Part shown: one piece after another, positions 264 through 17,121 of the stretch
Layout of the letters: the number at the start of each line of letters is the position of its first letter
Position numbering within the stretch: the stretch's first letter is position 1
Assembly: GCA_018818645.1 (NCBI GenBank)
Contig: JAHIRQ010000141.1
Location: 1-35,004 of the forward strand
DNA length: 35,004 nt
Direction: 5' to 3'
DNA from: Bacillota bacterium
GTDB lineage: Bacteria > Bacillota_I > Bacilli_A > Acholeplasmatales > Acholeplasmataceae
Translations under genes and position numbers: made by a program
The notes under the pieces: model-generated
Told to the model about the DNA's origin: nothing
Databases searched by the model: none
What the model saw: only the letters and a program-made list of their open reading frames with translations

Positions 264-2963
264 ATGAGAAAAATTATGATTTTATCAGCATTGTTATTTT
301 TCTTTTTTGTATTGACAGCATGTAAACCTGAAACTGAGTTTGTATTGACTGCAAATAACATGGAATCTTTTTTTGACATTGAGTTTATGACTGAGTTTGA
401 AGACGATACTTTTAGAATTATAGTCGAAATTGAACCTATAAAAACACTAAGTGTTGTTGATGGTGAAATAGAATTATCAGTCTTACTGAGAACATACGAT
501 ATGGATACCATCCATGTTATTGAAAAAAGCAAAACTATTCAGCTAGACTCAAAAGATCCGATTGTGATTAGACAATCCATTGATAATGATATCTTATTGA
601 TTGAAATGTATGATTACGTGATCAAAAGCGCAAGTGGAACTATAAAAACGAGATTTGATATCGATATCACAGAAAAAACATATCAAATTCCTGAAATAAC
701 TTCATATCCCTTATGGTTTAGCATCGAACACGAAGAGCAAAACAATAACATTTATGAAGAAATCGAACAAAAATTGAATGCATTCCAATCAAGTAAAAAC
801 CAATTTGATATCGAAATGTCAACACAAGTCAGCATTGATGATGGAGAAGATTTGCTCGAATATGAAACAATTCAACAAATGCTTGTTCAGGACTCGCCAT
901 TTTATATAGAAATGATTCTAGAAGATACAAGGCTAATCATCACAGAGATGCAAGAAAAAGTAGTACAAATTACCATGCCAATAGCTCCAAATTCTGATGG
1001 GATTTATTCATACTATCCAATTGAGATTGAAGGAGAAAGCACAATATTAAACCCAATTACTGATGATGGGCTAGATCCTCTCACCATGAGATTTTCAAAG
1101 CTTAACAACAGACTTTATCACTTTATTACAAAAATGAAGAATTTCATGACTGAAGAGGAATTTCAAGAGATCATTGATACATATGGAGATGAGAATAGCA
1201 AAGATTTGATTGGGAATCAATATGTACAAGGACAAATCGAGTTTGCTACAAATTACATCAATATATCATATAGTATGAAGATAGTCATTGAAGGAATTTC
1301 AACAGAAATCATCGTTTCAATGCACATGGGATATAGCGAATTTACTCCAATTGATTTTTCAAATACCGAAAGTTATAAAATGCAAGCACCAACACGAATT
1401 GATTATGCTACTTTCGAATCACCTCTTGAAACCAAGATTGAGGGAAAAATGGAGGGGAGTGGACTCTATTATATGTTTGATCTTGATAGAGGATCTTATG
1501 TTATTGAGTCTGAAACGGATCAATTTGGGGGAATGCAGTTTAAAGTATTTAATGAAGACTATGAAGAGGTATACTTAGGATTGTTTGATGACAATCGAAG
1601 CAATCAAAATATGGGAATTGATTATGAACACCTTGTGATTGAAGATGCTGGTATATATTATATAAAAGCATCATATGCAATTTATGGACAACCATTTGAT
1701 TTTAAAGTATCTAAACTAGATTTTCATCTTTTAAGTACCAATCATATCGATTATGTTACTCAAAATAAGAGCTATAGTTTTGAACTTGAGAATCCATACG
1801 ATGCACATACTTTTAATTTCTACTTCGATGAAATCAAGGCGATTAAGATCACAGGTACAAATCTTCCAGATATTGTTGCTAAACCATATTTATATAGTGA
1901 CTTCCAGAAGTTTCATATTGAATCAGAAGAAACCTACTTCATATTAGCCCCGAATAGTCAAATTGTGTTTTTGAATGATTCACTGACTCAAAGTATGCAG
2001 TACAATGTAGAATTTGAAATCATCGACCAAACCCACTCTACTACAAAAAATGTGTCAAATATGGAAATGATTACCCAAACATATCACCCATCTGAAATCA
2101 TAACCGGGTCTGGTATACCAAAAACCTATCTCAAACTACTAGTTACAGAAGAAGCGAGATATCAACTCGATTTCGATATTAAATATGGAATGATTGATGT
2201 GAAATTATACACAGAAAATAATGTTTTTTTAGCAAATATCTGGGATGGATCACAAGCAGATTTATTGCCAGGAACCTATTATATCGAGTTTAATGATATT
2301 TATGGCTTCGTAGGGTCTGTGAAATATCAAAAAATAGATTTAAATATCCAAATCATAGAGCACACATTGCAAGAGATTGATTCACCAAACACAAATGTAA
2401 CTATTTCAAGTATTCAAGGAAATATTCAAGGAACACTAGATCTCATCTACTATCAATTCACTCTTGATGAAACAAGCTATATAATGATCAGTAAAGAACA
2501 TGCTCTATTTGATAGTATGAATGAAAAACTTAGCTTTAATAATTTACCATATGGGACTACGATCACTTATAAATTAGATCCAGGTACTTACAAAGTAAAG
2601 ATCAATGCTATCTATTATAATTTCCCTCAAAGCTATTCATTGATCCTAGCTAAAATAGTCAATCCGTATTTAGATGATAGTCATTTTGCGAAAGAGATTA
2701 CAAATGCATATCTCAATGTAAGTTACACTTTAGAATCAGATTATCATGGCGATCGAGATGTCATGAAATTAGTCATTACGCATAAGGATGAATATCTATT
2801 TCGCACCAATGTACAGTTTTCATTGTGTAATTCTAATCGTGTCAATATCGATACAATCTATGATTTACAAGATGGAGATTCAATTACACTAGAGCCTGGA
2901 ACTTATTATCTTGTTAGTTATCCTTGGTTCCCTCAGACATGGGCTTTTCGAATCTTGACATAA
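264..2963 (+). CDS. Large secreted lipoprotein with several diverged beta-sandwich (PPC-like) repeats
   Basis: Signal peptide with lipobox (FFFFVLTAC); GGAGGGG-type RBS; recurring motifs GIYYIKASY, GTYYIEFND, GTYKVKINA, GTYYLVSYP. Confidence 0.85.
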   Translation: MRKIMILSALLFFFFVLTACKPETEFVLTANNMESFFDIEFMTEFEDDTFRIIVEIEPIKTLSVVDGEIELSVLLRTYDMDTIHVIEKSKTIQLDSKDPIVIRQSIDNDILLIEMYDYVIKSASGTIKTRFDIDITEKTYQIPEITSYPLWFSIEHEEQNNNIYEEIEQKLNAFQSSKNQFDIEMSTQVSIDDGEDLLEYETIQQMLVQDSPFYIEMILEDTRLIITEMQEKVVQITMPIAPNSDGIYSYYPIEIEGESTILNPITDDGLDPLTMRFSKLNNRLYHFITKMKNFMTEEEFQEIIDTYGDENSKDLIGNQYVQGQIEFATNYINISYSMKIVIEGISTEIIVSMHMGYSEFTPIDFSNTESYKMQAPTRIDYATFESPLETKIEGKMEGSGLYYMFDLDRGSYVIESETDQFGGMQFKVFNEDYEEVYLGLFDDNRSNQNMGIDYEHLVIEDAGIYYIKASYAIYGQPFDFKVSKLDFHLLSTNHIDYVTQNKSYSFELENPYDAHTFNFYFDEIKAIKITGTNLPDIVAKPYLYSDFQKFHIESEETYFILAPNSQIVFLNDSLTQSMQYNVEFEIIDQTHSTTKNVSNMEMITQTYHPSEIITGSGIPKTYLKLLVTEEARYQLDFDIKYGMIDVKLYTENNVFLANIWDGSQADLLPGTYYIEFNDIYGFVGSVKYQKIDLNIQIIEHTLQEIDSPNTNVTISSIQGNIQGTLDLIYYQFTLDETSYIMISKEHALFDSMNEKLSFNNLPYGTTITYKLDPGTYKVKINAIYYNFPQSYSLILAKIVNPYLDDSHFAKEITNAYLNVSYTLESDYHGDRDVMKLVITHKDEYLFRTNVQFSLCNSNRVNIDTIYDLQDGDSITLEPGTYYLVSYPWFPQTWAFRILT

Positions 2964-7219: not shown

Positions 7220-9094
7220 ATGAAAAAATTTGTAAAAAGTGCATTAACATTAGTCGTTGCACTTGTCACAGTTCTTGTCCTCGTTGCCTGCAACCCAGAT
7301 GCAACCACTGAAGAACAAACACTAGTTGTTGGTTCACCAGAAATTAGTGGTAACTTCATGGCTGGTTTTGGTAACAGTGCATATGATGTCTGGGTAAGAG
7401 ACCTAATCAATGGTTATGGTACTTACGCTACAACTCCACTTGGCGAAGTTGTTCTTAATGAAACAGTTGTTAAGACAGTAGCTACAGCAGTTGATACAGT
7501 TACTGGCGACAAGACTTATACGTTCGTACTTCAGGAAGATCTATTATGGTCTGATGATGAGCCAATTATGGCTGATGACTTCGTATTTGCAATACTAATG
7601 TCAGCTTCAAAAGAATGGGTAACAGCTGGTGCATCATCTTCAGCTGGTGACTCATTAGTTGGTTATACTGAATACCGTGCTGGTACAACTTCAGCAGACG
7701 TAAGATTTAAGGGCGTTAAGCTTCTTGGAGACTATAGCTTCTCAGTTACAATCTCTGGTGAAGAACTTCCTTATTACTACGAAACATTATATGCTGCTTT
7801 TGGTCCAATGCCAATGCACGTATTAGCTCCTGCCGGAGCATCAATCGACTCTAACGCTGATGGCGCTAAAGTTGGTGCTGGTAACCTTGCTTTATTAGCA
7901 GACGTTGCTAAGATTGGTGGATATCGCTATGCTCCAGTCGTTTCAGCTGGACCTTATAAGTTTGTTAGCTTCGTTAACCAAGTTGTAACATTAGTTAAGG
8001 ATGACAACTTCAAGGGTAACTACGAAGGTAAGACTCCAACTATTCAAAATGTTATTATCAAGCGTGTTAACCAAACATTAGACGTTGATCTAGTTATCTC
8101 TGGAGAAATCGATCTAGTTACAGGCGTTATTGAAGGTTCTAAGATTCAAGCTGCTCAAGCTGCTGCATCTACAGCTACTCAATACTATTCACGTAATGGT
8201 TATGGTTTATTAGCTATGCAAGCACATTTTGGTCCAACTATGGATTATAAAGTGCGTCAAGCTATTGCTTACCTAACTGATCGTCAATATGTAACAGACG
8301 TTGTTCTTGATGGTTACGGTTCAATCGTATACTCAGAATACGGTCTTGCACAATGGATGTATGTTCAATCAGAAGACTGGGTCGATGCAAACATTAATAA
8401 GTATGCATTCTCAGTAACACAAGCGAACACTGTTCTTGATACTTCAGACTATAAGTTTGAATCAAACGGAACTACACCATTCAACCCAGCATTAGCAACT
8501 GCAGGAAGCAATTACTTCCGTCATAATGCAGCTGGTGAAGTGCTAGAAATTAGACATTTCGGTACTGAAAATAATATGGTTACTGATTCTCTACAAGCTA
8601 AGTTCGAAATCAACATGCAACTTGCTGGTATCAAGTATGATATCACAATTGGTGACTTCGCTACTCTACTTGACCATTACTACTATTCATATGAATTAGA
8701 TCCTGCTGACAAGCAATATCATATCTTCAACTTAGCAACTAACTTCTCAGTAGCATATGACCCATATTATTCATGGCATTCAGATTGGCTAGGAACTTGG
8801 TACAATGCGCACCAATTAGAAGATTCACCAACATCTCCAGCTGCTCCATTAGTAGGCGCTGAAAAGACTCTTGATGAATTGACTACTGCTCTACGTACTG
8901 TAGAACCAGGTAACACTACAGCTTATCTAGCATTATGGAGAGAATATCAACTTCGTTGGAACAAGTTAATTCCAAACGTACCTCTATATTCTAACCAATA
9001 TTATGATGTATTTGATACTAATCTTAAGGGTGTTGAAACTACTCCATTCTGGAACTGGGCAGCAGCTATTAATGATATGTATTTCGAAGGATAA
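7220..9094 (+). CDS. oppA: Oligopeptide ABC transporter substrate-binding lipoprotein
   Basis: Lipobox (VLVAC), SBP family 5 architecture, first gene of the opp operon. Confidence 0.92.
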   Translation: MKKFVKSALTLVVALVTVLVLVACNPDATTEEQTLVVGSPEISGNFMAGFGNSAYDVWVRDLINGYGTYATTPLGEVVLNETVVKTVATAVDTVTGDKTYTFVLQEDLLWSDDEPIMADDFVFAILMSASKEWVTAGASSSAGDSLVGYTEYRAGTTSADVRFKGVKLLGDYSFSVTISGEELPYYYETLYAAFGPMPMHVLAPAGASIDSNADGAKVGAGNLALLADVAKIGGYRYAPVVSAGPYKFVSFVNQVVTLVKDDNFKGNYEGKTPTIQNVIIKRVNQTLDVDLVISGEIDLVTGVIEGSKIQAAQAAASTATQYYSRNGYGLLAMQAHFGPTMDYKVRQAIAYLTDRQYVTDVVLDGYGSIVYSEYGLAQWMYVQSEDWVDANINKYAFSVTQANTVLDTSDYKFESNGTTPFNPALATAGSNYFRHNAAGEVLEIRHFGTENNMVTDSLQAKFEINMQLAGIKYDITIGDFATLLDHYYYSYELDPADKQYHIFNLATNFSVAYDPYYSWHSDWLGTWYNAHQLEDSPTSPAAPLVGAEKTLDELTTALRTVEPGNTTAYLALWREYQLRWNKLIPNVPLYSNQYYDVFDTNLKGVETTPFWNWAAAINDMYFEG

Positions 9095-9188
9095 TTCCTG
9101 ACAAAACACAATTAAAATTTAATTAGAACTTGAAAATGAGGAGAGTAGGTTTTATACGCTCTCCTTACTTTTCGGAAAAGGAGGCAAC

Positions 9189-10163
9189 ATGCTCAAGTTT
9201 TTACTAAGAAGACTGCTTTCTCTATTGCCAGTCATAATCATCATCTCAATCATGCTGTTTACGATTATGAAATTGATGCCAGGTGATCCAGTTCGATACA
9301 TGATCCCACCTGGATCAGTCCAAGATCCTGAAGTTTATGCTCAACTTTATGAAGCTGCAAAAATCAAATTAGGATTGGATAAACCAATTTTCATTCAGTA
9401 CTTCGTTTGGATGGGAAATATGCTGACAGGCGATTTTGGTTATTCTTCGAATTACCAATTAAGAGTCAATGAGGTTTTAAAAGAACCGCTTCGTAACAGT
9501 ATTATTATTAACGTATTCTCAATTTCTTTAGCTTTCTTAATCTCGATTCCAGTGGGTATTAAATCAGCAGTGAAGAAGGATTCTCTCCACGACCGTGGAT
9601 GGCAAATCTTTTCATTGGTTGGTATCTCAATGCCTACATTTTTCATTGGATTAACACTCATTTTCATATTTGCATTAAATCTAGGATGGTTACCATCTGG
9701 TGGTATGCCATTTGAGAATCCAGGCAGTGCAGGATATTATGTCAAGTTCCTACAACATTTAGTCTTACCGGTTGCTACCCTTACTCTTGGTGCTCTAGCT
9801 GGTACGATTCGTTATGTTCGTGGAGCTATGCTTGAAGCATTAAGCAAAGATTATATTCGTACAGCCCGTTCTAAAGGTTTAAGAGAAAAGGTTGTTATCT
9901 ATTCACATGCTTTCCGTAATGCGTTAATTCCAGTTGTAACAATTCTATCTTTTTCGATCGTAGGATTATTCGGTGGATCAGCAATTACAGAACAAATATT
10001 TGTTTGGAACGGTATTGGTACTGTGTTGATTCGTTCACTTCGTGTTAACGATTATAACTTAGTACTTGTATTGAATATGTTTTACGCCGTGTTGGCTCTT
10101 GTAGCAAATATCGTTATGGATGTTAGCTATGCACTAGTCGATCCACGCGTTAAGTTGGAATAG
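9189..10163 (+). CDS. oppB: Oligopeptide ABC transporter permease OppB
   Basis: LRRLLSLLPVIIIIS...MPGDPV N-terminus; BPD permease EAA-type region YIRTARSKGLREKVVIYSHAFRNALIPVV. Confidence 0.95.
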   Translation: MLKFLLRRLLSLLPVIIIISIMLFTIMKLMPGDPVRYMIPPGSVQDPEVYAQLYEAAKIKLGLDKPIFIQYFVWMGNMLTGDFGYSSNYQLRVNEVLKEPLRNSIIINVFSISLAFLISIPVGIKSAVKKDSLHDRGWQIFSLVGISMPTFFIGLTLIFIFALNLGWLPSGGMPFENPGSAGYYVKFLQHLVLPVATLTLGALAGTIRYVRGAMLEALSKDYIRTARSKGLREKVVIYSHAFRNALIPVVTILSFSIVGLFGGSAITEQIFVWNGIGTVLIRSLRVNDYNLVLVLNMFYAVLALVANIVMDVSYALVDPRVKLE

Positions 10164-10174
10164 GAGGATAAATC

Positions 10175-12046
10175 ATGACAACACTGAAAAGAATATTGAA
10201 GTCGATCGTTGATTTATTCAAGAGACTATTTCTCCCTAATAAAGAACCAATCGATGTTTATAAAGAAGAAGCTCTACTTTCTCCAGGGAAAGTTATCGCT
10301 AGAAGATTCATTAAGAACAAACTCGCTGTCATTGGTATTATAGGATTCGTTTCTATTTTCCTATTTTCATTTGGACTCTCGCTATTTGTTCCACTAAATT
10401 TATATTATACAAACACTTTCCATCGTAATTTACCTCCTAATTATCAATATTTAAATGTACCTAAGCAGTTAATTAAAGAAGGTATTGTTGAAATTGAGTC
10501 TGGGAATGCAAACTCTATTGGACTCTCTGAAGATGGCAACATCTTCGTTTGGGGTGCTAATTATCGTGATATGCTTGATGTTCCTGAAATTATAAAAACT
10601 AAAAATATAGTTGATGTTTCAGCTGGATCACAACACTTAATTGCTGTAGATGATCAAGGAGAAATTTATCTTTGGGGTTATAATCACCAGTATCAAGCAG
10701 AGATTCATTCACGTTTCGTAACTAGTTTCGCAAATGACCCGATTGTTTTAATTAAGGGTGGTATTGAACGTACACTAGCAATTACTGAATCTGGTGCTGT
10801 CTATATTTGGGGCGTTGGTGCAAATAATGTTGGGGATGTGATGAACCGTGCTCCATATTATTTCTACGAGGAAGATGAAGTAACCGTCATTAAGGCAGTT
10901 GATGTTGTATCTAACTTTAACAATGCTCTTGTCTTACTTGAAGATGGTACTGTTCAATTGATTGGTCTCCAATCTGATGTCGCACTAACTATGCCAGCTG
11001 AATTACAAGATGGGTCAGTTGAAATCACTCAAATTGGTTTAACGATTTATAATGCACTTGCTGTAGATACCAATGGTAATCTTTATGTTTGGGGTGCAAC
11101 AAGCTTTAGTCTTCATGGAGACTTTATCCCTGAGGGAGCAAAAACAAATGTAAAACAACTTGGCGTTGGTTATGATCATGCAGTTGTTCTAACAAATGAC
11201 AACAAAGTTTATGCTTGGGGAAATAATGATTTAGGTCAAACTGAAGTACCAAAGAATATTGATGATGTAAGAGATATTTTTATTGATACACATCAAAACT
11301 TTATCATTCATGAGGATGGTAGTGTTACTACATTTGGTTTAAAAGGATATATGCTAGGAACTGATGAACAAGGAAGAGATTTTATCATTCAATTGATTCA
11401 TGGTGGTAAGATTACCTTGACAGTTGGTGCGGTAGCAGTTCTAATTTCATTAGTCATTGGTGTTTCAGTTGGTTTAACTGCTGGATATTTTGGTGGTAGA
11501 ATCGATAACCTACTCATGAGATTTGCTGAAATTGTATCTTCATTCCCATTCCTACCATTCGCAATTACATTATCCGCATTACTATTAGGTGGTGCAACAA
11601 CTGAAGTTCAGCGTATGCTTATGATCATGGTTATTCTAGGGGTTCTCTCCTGGACTGGTTTAGCACGACTAATTCGTGGTCAAATTCTTTCTGAAAGAGA
11701 AAGAGATTATGTATTAGCAGCGAAGGCTTTAGGTATTAAACAAAAACACATTATATGGAGACATATTTTCCCAGCTGTTATCAGTATTGTTATTGTTAAC
11801 TTGACTCTTGGGTATGCAGGCTCGCTTCTAACAGAAGCTGGATTATCCTTCCTAGGATTTGGTGTGCAAAAACCAAACCCATCATGGGGTAATATTTTAA
11901 CTGCAGCACAGGATGTTAACGTAATTAGAATTTACTGGTGGCGTTGGATTTTACCAGGCTTAGCGATTATCATTGCTGCGTTAAGTATTAACTTAATTGG
12001 TGATGCATTGCGTGATGCAATGGATCCTAAGAATGCAGAACGATAG
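10175..12046 (+). CDS. oppC: Oligopeptide ABC transporter permease OppC with inserted RCC1-like beta-propeller
   Basis: OppC_N-like TM segment (ARRFIKNKLAVIGIIGFVSIFL), seven RCC1-like repeats with (Y/V)xWG motifs, then canonical LGTDEQGRD and permease EAA loop (DYVLAAKALGIKQKHIIWRHIFPAV). Confidence 0.93.
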   Translation: MTTLKRILKSIVDLFKRLFLPNKEPIDVYKEEALLSPGKVIARRFIKNKLAVIGIIGFVSIFLFSFGLSLFVPLNLYYTNTFHRNLPPNYQYLNVPKQLIKEGIVEIESGNANSIGLSEDGNIFVWGANYRDMLDVPEIIKTKNIVDVSAGSQHLIAVDDQGEIYLWGYNHQYQAEIHSRFVTSFANDPIVLIKGGIERTLAITESGAVYIWGVGANNVGDVMNRAPYYFYEEDEVTVIKAVDVVSNFNNALVLLEDGTVQLIGLQSDVALTMPAELQDGSVEITQIGLTIYNALAVDTNGNLYVWGATSFSLHGDFIPEGAKTNVKQLGVGYDHAVVLTNDNKVYAWGNNDLGQTEVPKNIDDVRDIFIDTHQNFIIHEDGSVTTFGLKGYMLGTDEQGRDFIIQLIHGGKITLTVGAVAVLISLVIGVSVGLTAGYFGGRIDNLLMRFAEIVSSFPFLPFAITLSALLLGGATTEVQRMLMIMVILGVLSWTGLARLIRGQILSERERDYVLAAKALGIKQKHIIWRHIFPAVISIVIVNLTLGYAGSLLTEAGLSFLGFGVQKPNPSWGNILTAAQDVNVIRIYWWRWILPGLAIIIAALSINLIGDALRDAMDPKNAER

Positions 12047-12051
12047 GAGGT

Positions 12052-13065
12052 ATGAACATGGATAAAGGAAACTTATTAGAAATTAGAAATTTACATACCT
12101 ACTTTGCTACTAAAAGAGGTTTGATTAAAGCCGTCAATGGTGTATCACTCAGTGTTAAGAATGGAAAAACACTTGGTATCGTTGGTGAATCCGGAAGTGG
12201 AAAGAGCGTTACTGCAATGAGTATATTAAAGCTCTTTGAACACAACCAAAAAATCCATGAAGGTGAAATTTGGTTTGATGGCGAAAAAATATCTGAACTT
12301 GATGAAGCTGACATGAGAAAAATTCGTGGGAATGAGATTTCAGTCATTTTCCAGGAACCAATGACCAGCTTGAATCCAGTTTTAACTGTAACAAGACAAA
12401 TCAGTGAAGTCTTAATGCTGCATCAGGATTTAGACAAAAAACAAGCACATGAAAGAACTGTACAATTACTTAAATCAGTTGGTATATCCAATCCAGATAA
12501 AATTGCGAATGCATATTCATTCCAGCTTTCTGGTGGGATGAGCCAGCGTGTAATGATTGCAATGGCTCTTGCTTGCCGCCCTAAATTATTAATAGCAGAT
12601 GAACCAACTACAGCTCTTGATGTTACCATTCAAGCTCAAATATTAAAGCTAATGAATGATTTAAAGAGTGAACTAGGAACTTCAATTATATTCGTTACCC
12701 ATGACCTTGGAGTTATCAATGAAATGGCTGATGATGTTGCTGTTATGTATTCAGGACAAGTTGTTGAAAATGCTTCAGCAAAAATGATTTTCTCTGGTAA
12801 AGCAAAATACTCCCATCCTTATACTGAAGGATTGATGAACTCAATTCCAAGACTTACTGATGATAGAGGAAAGAAACTAGAAGTTATTCCTGGTTCTGTA
12901 CCACATCCACTGGATTTACCAGTTGGTTGTAAGTTTGCACCACGTTGTAAGTATGCAACTGAAAAGTGTAAGGTTGAAGAACCAGCATTATTAGAAGTGG
13001 AAACAAACCATTCCATCCGTTGTTTCTATCCAGAAAGTGGGGTGCGCAGCAATGGCAAAGAATAG
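12052..13065 (+). CDS. oppD: Oligopeptide ABC transporter ATP-binding protein OppD
   Basis: Walker A GESGSGKS, signature LSGGMSQRV, Walker B LLIADEPTTALD, C-terminal oligo_HPY Cys motif (GCKFAPRCKYATEKC). Confidence 0.95.
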   Translation: MNMDKGNLLEIRNLHTYFATKRGLIKAVNGVSLSVKNGKTLGIVGESGSGKSVTAMSILKLFEHNQKIHEGEIWFDGEKISELDEADMRKIRGNEISVIFQEPMTSLNPVLTVTRQISEVLMLHQDLDKKQAHERTVQLLKSVGISNPDKIANAYSFQLSGGMSQRVMIAMALACRPKLLIADEPTTALDVTIQAQILKLMNDLKSELGTSIIFVTHDLGVINEMADDVAVMYSGQVVENASAKMIFSGKAKYSHPYTEGLMNSIPRLTDDRGKKLEVIPGSVPHPLDLPVGCKFAPRCKYATEKCKVEEPALLEVETNHSIRCFYPESGVRSNGKE

Positions 13066-14590
13066 TTTAAATAAGAAAGAAAAGCTATTAGAAATTAGAA
13101 AACTTAAAAAATTCTTCCCTCTAAAGCGCAATACGTTTTTAAACAAGAGACAAATTTATGTACGTGCAGTTGAAGACGTATCACTTGAAATCTATAAGGG
13201 CGAAACATTTGGTCTTGTAGGTGAATCAGGTTGCGGTAAATCAACTTTAGGACGTATTATTCTTCAATTGTATCCACCAACTAGTGGAAGTGCCGTTTAT
13301 TTTGGTTCTAGATTAGAAGATATGGATTTGCAATATATTGTTGAAGAAATCAAAAAATTACCTAAATATCAACATCGTGCAATCGAATGCTATAAGAGAA
13401 GTGAAAAATATGACCTTGAAGTTATTCAATTGAAAGAAGAACTTTCTCAAATTGAAAAGAGCAAGGAAATGGTTGACAAATCTTATGACCAAAAAGTAGC
13501 TAAGCTTGAAAAACTACAACATCATTCTAGAGAACAGAAAAAAGAAGCATCACGTCAACTTAGAGAAGCATCTAGAACTGTAGGATCATTGATTTTAGAA
13601 GAAAACATCGAAGAAATTAGTGATTTGTTATTAAAAGCTACAGATTTACACGGACATAATAGTGTAATATTTGCTGGTTTGGAAGGCAATGAAGATGCGA
13701 AGATGTCAGCTGAAGTTAAAAAATTATTTGGTATTATTCGCGATTATAAAGGCAAAAAAACACTACCTATTACTGAACGTACACTAGATCCTAAGTATCA
13801 AGAAAAGCTTGAAAAGAACCGTGAATACGGTATTAACTTATCACGTTTAGATCAAGAAGAAATGAGACAGCTTAGAAGAAAACTTCAAATCATATTCCAG
13901 GATCCATATTCATCACTAGATTCAAGAATGACAGTTGGCCAAATTATTGGTGAAGCTGTTGTTGAACATGGAATGTATCCAAAAGGATCTAAAGAACTTG
14001 AAACTTATGTCCTAGAGACCATGGCTAAATGTGGACTCGATGCATATATGCTACACCGCTTCCCTCACCAGTTTTCTGGTGGCCAAAGACAACGTATCGG
14101 TATTGCAAGAGCATTAGCTCTTAAGCCAGAATTCGTTGTTTGTGATGAAGCAGTATCAGCACTTGACGTATCGATTCAATCACAGATTATTAACTTGCTT
14201 GTAGAACTTAAGGATCAAGAAGATTTAACATATTTATTCATCTCTCATGACCTTTCAGTTATTAAGCATATTAGTGATAGAATTGGTGTCATGTACTTAG
14301 GTAACATGGTTGAACTTGGGCCATCTGATGAAATTTATGCAAACCCATTACATCCATATACGAAAGCTCTTTTATCAGCAATTCCAACAACAGACGAAAT
14401 TAAACAAGAACGCATCCTATTAGAAGGAGATATTCCATCGAACATCTTCCCACCATCAGGTTGTAAGTTTAGAACACGTTGCCCACTCGCTGTTGAAAAG
14501 TGTGCGAAGGTAGTTCCAGAATATCGTGAGATTTCTAAGGGACACTTTGTCGCTTGCCACTTCTATGAAAAAACAAAAGATATGAAGTAG
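13052..14590 (+). CDS. oppF: Oligopeptide ABC transporter ATP-binding protein OppF with ~170-aa charged/coiled-coil insertion
   Basis: Walker A GESGCGKST, Q-loop FQDPYSSL, signature FSGGQRQRIGIARAL, Walker B FVVCDEAVSALD, GCKFRTRCPLAVEKC. Start at 13052 (MAKNSLN) preferred over 13037. Confidence 0.93.
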   Translation: MAKNSLNKKEKLLEIRKLKKFFPLKRNTFLNKRQIYVRAVEDVSLEIYKGETFGLVGESGCGKSTLGRIILQLYPPTSGSAVYFGSRLEDMDLQYIVEEIKKLPKYQHRAIECYKRSEKYDLEVIQLKEELSQIEKSKEMVDKSYDQKVAKLEKLQHHSREQKKEASRQLREASRTVGSLILEENIEEISDLLLKATDLHGHNSVIFAGLEGNEDAKMSAEVKKLFGIIRDYKGKKTLPITERTLDPKYQEKLEKNREYGINLSRLDQEEMRQLRRKLQIIFQDPYSSLDSRMTVGQIIGEAVVEHGMYPKGSKELETYVLETMAKCGLDAYMLHRFPHQFSGGQRQRIGIARALALKPEFVVCDEAVSALDVSIQSQIINLLVELKDQEDLTYLFISHDLSVIKHISDRIGVMYLGNMVELGPSDEIYANPLHPYTKALLSAIPTTDEIKQERILLEGDIPSNIFPPSGCKFRTRCPLAVEKCAKVVPEYREISKGHFVACHFYEKTKDMK

Positions 14591-14844: not shown

Positions 14845-17121
14845 TTATTCATCCGCTAATGCAAGTTCAATAACTTCGATTATTTTGGCAGAATTTTGAG
14901 TATCAGCTACTGGTAAAACATAATCAGGAGTGATTCCATCTTCAATCGAGAAATATTCATATCCATCGACTTCATTCCCAACACGATAGCTTAAGACGTT
15001 TAAACTACTCATATGGAAGAATGTTCCATCGGGTAAGACTACAGGAATAATCGATGAAGCACCACCACCAGATTTAGTACCAATAATTGTAGCGAATCCC
15101 ATGTGTTGACCAATAGATGTCATTAAGTTTGCTGCAGAGAATGTTACACGTGATGTAATAAAGAACCAATTAACATCTGTATAAGCGACTGTATCTACAT
15201 CAGCAAAATAGGTTACATTCGATTTGTCAGTCGGATTCATATAGCTCATTTCAATAGGTTGTTCGGTCATAAAGCCTAAAACTCTGATCAAGGCACCTAA
15301 ATTACCACCAGTATTGAAACTCAAATCAACAACAATATTTTCAACGTTTCTGTTTTCTAACATAATCGCATCCATTGTTTCTCTCATAAAGCGATGCGAA
15401 TCATCTCCATCAGGATCTTCTACAGTGGCTGTATAAAAACCATCGAGATAAATAACTGCTGTTTTACCACCATCAATAAAACGGTAATCAGGTGGAATAT
15501 TATCTGCATTTTGAGGATATGTTGTAGCAAATAAATCTTGCACATCAAATAATACATCATACCAGCTTCTTACTGTTGGTCCTACTTGTGCAACAGTTTC
15601 TAAAGCTAATTTAAATGAAGGAACTTCGTAGTATCCCGGGAAATGATAACTAGAATGTAAATCATCTAATGTTTTGTTAACGACATTGAAGATACCATTT
15701 GATAAATCTCTAGTTTTCCCAGTCATATAAGAATCTCTAGTACTTGTAAGTGTATTATAATAAGTGTCTATGCCTCTTTGAGATTTTAATCCAAAGAAGT
15801 AGTCTAGTGAGAAGACAAGTAAATCATAGGTTGCTACTAAGACATCTGGAGAAATATCAGTGCCATTCAGTGAACTGACCTTGATTGCATTGTATGCTCT
15901 TCCATCTTCAGTTTCACCAGTAGCATCATCTGTATCTGGGAATGCATAAATACCAGAATAACCATTACCATTATAATAAACATTGTAGTAAGAACCACCT
16001 GTAAATAGTAGGTTTGCTATATGGAATGGGAATAAATATTTAGTCTCAAGACCGTCTTGGTGAATCACTAAATCAAATCGGTAAGGAGTTAATTCTAATG
16101 TTACAGATTCGCCTTCTTCATAATAGGTTTCTAGATATGTTATGCCAGCACCATAATCGGTTGCTGTTTCATAAATATAACCTTCAAAAAAACTAAGTGT
16201 ATCCATGGTTACTGTATTCTCTTCAAAATCTATCGTTAAATAGAAGTCTTCAGTTTCTGTTCCAGTAACATTACCTTGATCATCTTCAATGTCATATTCA
16301 GCTTGATAATAGACTGTTACTGAATCACCATTGATAGTAAACTCAAAGTCATCAAAATATAGGAATCCTTCAAGGATGGATAAAAATTCCATGAAATCAA
16401 CATATGGAAGTGCACCATCTTCAGCAAAATATGTCGTTAGATTTGCATCAGCTACAGTAAACTCTGATGTTAAATTTGTAAATGGAAGTTCAACAGAGTC
16501 ATCAATAATTACATCAGTTTTTGCTGGTACAACAACCTCAAAATCGAAAAACTTTTGTTGCAAACCATAGGTGAGCTTAGCGGTAAGAGTCACAGTCACA
16601 TCATCTTCACCCATAGTCGGATGGAAAACAACGCCATGACGGTTGATGATAGCAGGATTGCTCGAAGACCAAGTAATCCCTGAATCATTGACTGTACCTT
16701 TGATTGGCAAATTCAACTTTGAAGCAGTGACTGGAGTATCTGCTAAGGAAATAGCAGCTGCATCAGCATCCATGTAAGCTGTTTGTAATGCAACATCAGC
16801 ACTCCATTTCGCATAAAGCTTGATATTGCCTGTAATCGGAGTTTCAAAATCAAATAATGAGGTTAAATTTAGATCTGTATACCACCCATCAAATAGGTAT
16901 GTAATTCGAGTTGGATCTTCAGGTTCAATAGCTTTCTCCCCGTCAACAACGGATTGTTCAGTGACGAGTGATCCCCCTGCCACCTCAAATGTAACCGTAA
17001 AGGATGTCTTCTCAGATTCCTTTGGTGTACATGAAACGAGTAAAAGCACAAAAGCTAAAAGTAATACGATTTTTCTAAGTTTCATAAAGTACCTCTTTTT
17101 CGTATTTATATGATTCATCAT
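14845..17121 (-). CDS. S41 (tail-specific) peptidase-like lipoprotein with InlB/Listeria-Bacteroides-type repeat and Ig-like domain
   Basis: Lipobox (LLLVSC); TFEVAGGSLVTEQSV...YLFDGWYTD...LYAKW repeat; WSSSNPAIIN Ig-like motif; S41-like core VVDLSFNTGGN, ITSRVTFSAAN, GTKSGGGAS. Possible start MKLRKIVLL slightly downstream of the ORF start. Confidence 0.85.
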   Translation of the reverse strand: MMNHINTKKRYFMKLRKIVLLLAFVLLLVSCTPKESEKTSFTVTFEVAGGSLVTEQSVVDGEKAIEPEDPTRITYLFDGWYTDLNLTSLFDFETPITGNIKLYAKWSADVALQTAYMDADAAAISLADTPVTASKLNLPIKGTVNDSGITWSSSNPAIINRHGVVFHPTMGEDDVTVTLTAKLTYGLQQKFFDFEVVVPAKTDVIIDDSVELPFTNLTSEFTVADANLTTYFAEDGALPYVDFMEFLSILEGFLYFDDFEFTINGDSVTVYYQAEYDIEDDQGNVTGTETEDFYLTIDFEENTVTMDTLSFFEGYIYETATDYGAGITYLETYYEEGESVTLELTPYRFDLVIHQDGLETKYLFPFHIANLLFTGGSYYNVYYNGNGYSGIYAFPDTDDATGETEDGRAYNAIKVSSLNGTDISPDVLVATYDLLVFSLDYFFGLKSQRGIDTYYNTLTSTRDSYMTGKTRDLSNGIFNVVNKTLDDLHSSYHFPGYYEVPSFKLALETVAQVGPTVRSWYDVLFDVQDLFATTYPQNADNIPPDYRFIDGGKTAVIYLDGFYTATVEDPDGDDSHRFMRETMDAIMLENRNVENIVVDLSFNTGGNLGALIRVLGFMTEQPIEMSYMNPTDKSNVTYFADVDTVAYTDVNWFFITSRVTFSAANLMTSIGQHMGFATIIGTKSGGGASSIIPVVLPDGTFFHMSSLNVLSYRVGNEVDGYEYFSIEDGITPDYVLPVADTQNSAKIIEVIELALADE

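Follow-up and report, generated by a model that had tools for sequence, protein, structure and literature searches.

An OppC permease of a bacterial peptide importer carries an RCC1-like domain, predicted to be a seven-bladed propeller, in the loop between its first two transmembrane (TM) segments. This fusion is real, conserved and, as far as our searches reach, functionally undescribed, and it is a variant of a known peptide importer rather than a novel kind of system. Few bacterial transporters have been studied as much as peptide importers, whose outer surface is usually drawn as OppA on short loops. The first-pass annotation of the stretch of DNA analysed here (35,004 nucleotides; hereafter, the window) had stated that no functional description of an RCC1 propeller in an ABC permease was known; we likewise found none in the open-access literature. 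Our search for reports joining RCC1 with an oligopeptide permease was also negative within that literature, subscription journals being mostly outside its reach.

The oppC gene and its operon

Open reading frames (ORFs) and Pfam matches give the gene order oppA-oppB-oppC-oppD-oppF, with oppC as the third gene. The features are as follows (window coordinates, strand, description, basis).

7220..9094, +, oppA, lipoprotein-type substrate-binding protein (SBP_bac_5); profile match, lipobox LVAC read off the sequence
9189..10163, +, oppB, permease of ordinary length (324 aa); profile match
10175..12046, +, oppC with RCC1 propeller insert, 623 aa; ORF with OppC_N, WD40_RLD/RCC1_2 and BPD_transp_1 in a single frame, orthologous fusions in other genomes
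10322..10378, +, TM1, aa 50-68 of OppC; hydropathy and charge
10397..10483, +, pre-propeller linker, aa 75-103, N85 and P88 near-invariant; conservation over 19 fusions
10484..10555, +, blade 1, aa 104-127; three predicted strands, RCC1 repeat
10607..10678, +, blade 2, aa 145-168; predicted strands, RCC1 repeat
10742..10813, +, blade 3, aa 190-213; predicted strands, RCC1 repeat
10895..10966, +, blade 4, aa 241-264; predicted strands, RCC1 repeat
11024..11095, +, blade 5, aa 284-307; predicted strands, RCC1 repeat
11150..11221, +, blade 6, aa 326-349; predicted strands, RCC1 repeat
11267..11338, +, blade 7, aa 365-388; predicted strands, RCC1 repeat
11339..11383, +, junction LKGYMLGTDEQGRDF, aa 389-403, with G391, G395, D397 and G400 invariant in fusions; conservation
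11459..12031, +, BPD_transp_1 permease domain, aa 429-619, most of TM2-TM6 and the cytoplasmic EAA loop; profile match, hydropathy
12052..13065, +, oppD ATPase, ordinary Walker A to Q-loop spacing (47 aa); profile match, spacing
13037..14590, +, oppF ATPase, Walker A to Q-loop spacing of 217 aa versus 42 (about 175 residues extra); profile match, spacing

The protein is recognisable as an OppC-type peptide permease by PF12911 (OppC_N, aa 36-88; 34.6 bits, E 1.7e-8, cut-off 23.9), by PF00528 (BPD_transp_1, aa 429-619; 111.6 bits, E 5e-32) together with its EAA loop, and by its operon with OppA, OppB, OppD and OppF. With OppC/DppC permeases it shares six TM segments, the LGTDEQGRD motif, the EAA loop and the place in oppABCDF, and it differs from them by about 330 outside residues between TM1 and TM2 that hold the propeller. 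The nearest NCBIfam model is NF045476 (Opp4C), whose score of 314.4 bits falls short of the 350-bit whole-protein cut-off; the other fusions tested also score below it. When the protein is aligned with the solved E. coli OppC, residue 80 of the latter pairs with residue 390, so that the additional length falls between TM1 and TM2.

The insert itself scores above the cut-offs of two RCC1-type profiles, PF25390 (RCC1-like domain; 175.8 bits, E 2.1e-51, cut-off 150; best stretch aa 138-399) and PF13540 (RCC1_2; 117.4 bits, E 1.4e-34, cut-off 22), and a sequence search against the PDB retrieves HERC2 (1.5e-19), UVR8 (6e-17) and BLIP-II (1.7e-14). The seven blade strings quoted in the first-pass annotation are all present, in frame and in order, in the 623-aa ORF (aa 114-127, 154-168, 200-213, 251-264, 294-307, 336-349 and 375-388). 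Its placement of the insert at nucleotides 10484-11340, corresponding to aa 104-389, holds for the propeller proper (aa 104-388), and the whole extracytoplasmic insert has to be extended to aa ~75-403.

Elsewhere in the window, a lipoprotein-like protein with List_Bact_rpt, aBig_2 and peptidase S41 domains is encoded beside the opp operon (14845-17121, - strand), and an 899-aa ORF at 264-2963 (+ strand) has no NCBIfam match.

Predicted fold and topology

Modelled by itself with AlphaFold2 from five sequences, the insert (aa 86-395; mean pLDDT 73, pTM 0.76) contains 21 blade strands arranged as seven blades of three. Its best Foldseek matches in the PDB include UVR8 (E 1e-16) and BLIP-II (E 3e-16), and HERC2, RPGR and RCC1 are also found. 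The earlier suggestion that seven blades would close a propeller is thus borne out by the predicted model. The full-length model shows the same blades; however, since the alignment had only five close sequences, its membrane part is too poor (pLDDT about 30-40) to orient the propeller relative to the membrane.

Hydropathy places TM1 at aa 50-68 and the next TM segment from about aa 407, with six TM segments in total and none within the insert. The N-terminus (aa 1-49) has a net charge of +7 and the insert one of -26. Placing the N-terminus inside puts the EAA loop (aa 514-535) in the cytoplasm, as required, and the insert outside. The computed layout is therefore six TM segments with the insert between TM1 and TM2 on the extracytoplasmic side, and hydropathy, charge and EAA-loop position all agree with the location proposed earlier.

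With UVR8, BLIP-II, HERC2 and RCC1 the domain shares seven WG-type repeats and the same predicted fold, but it sits in a membrane transporter, faces outside and is about 15-25% identical in the fold matches; there is no reason to expect exchange-factor or photoreceptor activity from it. As far as the permease is concerned, a parallel is MalF-P2 of the E. coli maltose importer. By prediction, OppC too has a large folded extracytoplasmic domain inside a permease loop, and both belong to type I importers with a separate binding protein. The searches detected no homology between MalF-P2 and the propeller, and both the importer family and the fold are different.

Distribution and authenticity

The window's own genome has one full copy of the OppC-propeller, and the fusion occurs in 6 of the 20 genomes of the genus. 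Among 395 genomes of the class, families f1, f9, f19, f22 and f24 contain full or split matches, which places the fusion in four families besides its own. The frames with these matches measure about 600-1149 aa, and the domain order is identical in the ORFs that were read from them. Within the order of G236, a full-length match (frame of 551-641 aa) occurs in 20 of 148 genomes, and every one of these belongs to family f22, whose 16S tentatively points to Erysipelotrichaceae; for the f22 genomes whose locus was not fetched, the fusion is deduced from frame length. A single-genome, lineage-specific oddity can thus be dismissed. No full-length fusion was found outside this class in a search of 392 genomes of the phylum, and no relative was found in viral contigs. 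Plasmid homologues with the propeller were not found either, plasmid matches spanning at most about half of the query and mostly the permease.

Among named genomes, the fusion was found in that of Peloplasma aerotolerans M4Ah, a congener isolated from a mud volcano (PMC11122141). This organism grows on tryptone, needs yeast extract and does not grow on casamino acids (PMC11122141), a pattern that fits, but does not prove, putative peptide import by the fusion system. Because the same join occurs at one position in independent assemblies and in the isolate genome, the assembly or fusion artefact that the first-pass annotation had allowed for is excluded, as is an annotation artefact or a chance join.

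We also considered a tie to the missing cell wall. Fusion genomes of Acholeplasmatales, of f24 and, for the most part, of f19 lack the mraY gene, whereas those of f22 and f9 and G154 have it, so that the fusion occurs both with and without this gene and such a tie is ruled out.

In one genome (G115; L182:3857-7288), OppC reaches 1144 aa, and long insertions, one of them coiled-coil-like, break up the propeller blades. The window's genome additionally encodes large RCC1-repeat proteins (L199:2702-7537, G000 contig 34; L200:2136-4295, G000 contig 88), which also carry repeats resembling List_Bact_rpt; the start of the L200 protein is lipoprotein-like. The propeller could have been derived locally from such proteins. 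A study of Hepatoplasmataceae reports further mollicute proteins with RCC1-like propellers (PMC10928387).

Origin, selection and conservation

In the permease-domain tree, the 24 fusions form one clade (support 99/93), with 41 propeller-free OppCs outside. This tree requires one change to the fusion and zero losses among the 24, and the propeller was never exchanged for another fold inside the clade. The nearest relatives of the clade, family f16 among others, have ordinary short loops, and the propeller tree matches the permease tree in well-supported branches. The fusion therefore arose once within the sampled genomes. Some f16 members (L183, L184, L240 and L242) encode OppCs of ~530 aa with an enlarged N-terminal part, together with an ordinary OppF.

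The history of the operon differs from that of its host. Between the window's genome and G224, which belongs to another order, RpoB is 59.5% identical, whereas the OppC permease is 87.3% identical and the Opp proteins as a whole are 67-82% identical. Because this similarity lies far above that of RpoB, the opp operon (window 7220-14590, compared with L136) has been transferred horizontally.

When the window is compared with congeners G003 and G006, dN/dS is 0.15-0.16 in the propeller and 0.04-0.05 in the permease; for G006 and G004 it is 0.08 and 0.03, respectively. With the distant G224, the values are 0.36 and 0.07, synonymous sites being near saturation. The propeller is thus under purifying selection (0.08-0.16 among congeners), while at replacement sites it changes several times faster than the permease. 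Over 19 fusions, conservation is highest in the WG strands and at N85 and P88 on the N-terminal side of the propeller and G388, G391 and G395 on its C-terminal side; blade 1 is the best-kept blade. Conservation is among the lowest in the long inter-blade loops, whose entropy is 2.0-2.4 bits as compared with 0.99 in the permease. This pattern is consistent with a propeller that is held rigidly while its working face varies.

Enlarged OppF and other long-loop OppCs

Walker A and the Q-loop of OppF normally lie 42 aa apart. In the 15 propeller operons whose OppF could be read, this spacing is always 158-421 aa, an enlargement of 115-380 residues. In propeller-free sister operons it is 42, and OppD of the propeller operons is normal. 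The extra ~175 residues in the window's OppF (about 13350-13830) look like a coiled coil.

A second clade of long-loop OppCs, separate from the propeller clade, has enlarged OppFs as well. These OppCs of Acholeplasmatales share with the fusion the site of the extra residues and the enlarged OppF, but their insert lacks RCC1 repeats. In L029, L036, L041, L043, L045 and relatives, the OppC ORFs are about 620-690 aa long, with at least 300 extra residues in the same loop, and sequence searches of this insert against Pfam and the PDB gave no match. This insert would be an undescribed extracytoplasmic domain.

Across 98 systems, OppF is long in 43 of the 47 with a long-loop OppC and in 6 of the 51 with a short-loop one, leaving exceptions of both kinds (four long-loop OppCs with a normal OppF, six short-loop ones with a long OppF). 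Counted row by row, the association is strong (Fisher 2.6e-16), but the rows are related. When shared ancestry is counted, there are about two independent coincidences and the paired test is not significant, which is why we treat the association as a lead only.

Possible roles of the propeller

The first-pass annotation had put forward a docking platform, a peptide sensor or a gate. The explanation that we favour by analogy, tentatively and at somewhat less than an even chance, is that the propeller, fixed on the outside opposite the OppB scoop, may serve as a docking site for the lipoprotein OppA. The two ends of a closed propeller lie side by side, so that the TM1-TM2 loop could accommodate it with no need for the helices to move apart; the conserved junctions would fix it in place beside the entrance. 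Tethered in this way, it might serve as a permanent platform touching the membrane-anchored OppA. It would steady OppA above the pore while the OppB scoop opens OppA and the peptide is released, a mode of action like that of MalF-P2 in the maltose importer, with a different fold and on the OppC side.

Docking is favoured because the Dpp arrangement and MalF-P2 offer precedents. In E. coli DppABCDF, DppA caps both DppB and DppC, and the DppB scoop inserts between the lobes of DppA and grips it (PMC12136057). This scoop, a short helix-loop-helix, occupies the extracytoplasmic TM1-TM2 region of the partner permease (PMC12136057); the propeller, a whole domain, lies in the matching region of OppC. 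MalF-P2, in turn, touches MalE (PMC3150292). Furthermore, solved complexes among the Foldseek matches show the RCC1-type propellers BLIP-II and UVR8 to be protein-binding modules. The oppABCDF setting of the propeller is also constant, oppA adjoining oppBC in each of the propeller operons examined. On the other hand, no common binding site is visible, and the inter-blade loops, which are the usual binding surface, are variable; co-evolution with OppA could be the cause of this variability. The OppAs of propeller-free sister operons resemble that of the window (37-39%) as closely as do those of most more distant propeller operons (27-44%). The propeller is therefore not needed for such an OppA to work.

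The fast evolution of the inter-blade loops on a conserved scaffold might instead indicate that the propeller is a capture device in its own right, its variable loops binding peptides, proteins or a surface polymer in the manner of BLIP-II and so delivering substrate to the importer. BLIP-II is among the closest solved folds, and large, secreted-looking RCC1-repeat proteins are encoded in the same genome. Nevertheless, we consider this unlikely, as a complete OppA gene adjoins oppBC in 16 of 16 propeller operons examined and a conserved pocket was not found in the propeller. The constant presence of OppA also means that the propeller is no substitute for the binding protein, and its replacement of OppA is ruled out.

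Another idea is that the outer propeller and the inner OppF insertion are two ends of one OppC-OppF regulatory path, acting as a sensor or gate. The long OppF in every readable propeller operon, set against 42 aa in the sister operons, its recurrence with the independent long-loop OppC clade, and the contact between DppC and DppF, which pair in E. coli (PMC12136057), would be consistent with this. We regard it as rather improbable, given the small number of independent coincidences on the tree, the non-significant paired test, the exceptions in both directions and the lack of any signalling partner in view. A wider proposal, in which the outer OppC propeller and the inner insertion in OppF, its presumed partner ATPase, are coupled as a regulatory or docking pair and define an undescribed importer class, is similarly doubtful. 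If true, an accessory unit on one transporter half would control when the loaded binding protein delivers its peptide, and such importers would occur in several families within a single bacterial class.

A purely structural role, as a spacer, a shield or an anchor in the envelope that would protect the entrance or hold the importer at the surface without taking part in transport directly, seems less probable still. The loop has been enlarged independently in several OppC clades with no recognisable common domain, and these genomes encode further RCC1-repeat proteins that are apparently located at the surface; yet the propeller was never lost or replaced within the fusion clade, and its occurrence irrespective of mraY gives no link to the cell wall. 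Selectively neutral decoration, to which the faster replacement-site evolution might point, is very improbable in view of the dN/dS values among congeners, the open frames and the seven blades kept across families. Nothing was found in favour of an artefactual fusion, which the shared join already refutes.

Implications

The propeller, for which OppA docking remains our preferred role, is a removable module through which the holding and release of the binding protein can be studied, and a site where specificity or regulation could be added. Since the fusion is present in a cultured organism, it is experimentally accessible. The parallel enlargement of OppF, expected across the membrane from OppC, provides a second testable lead.
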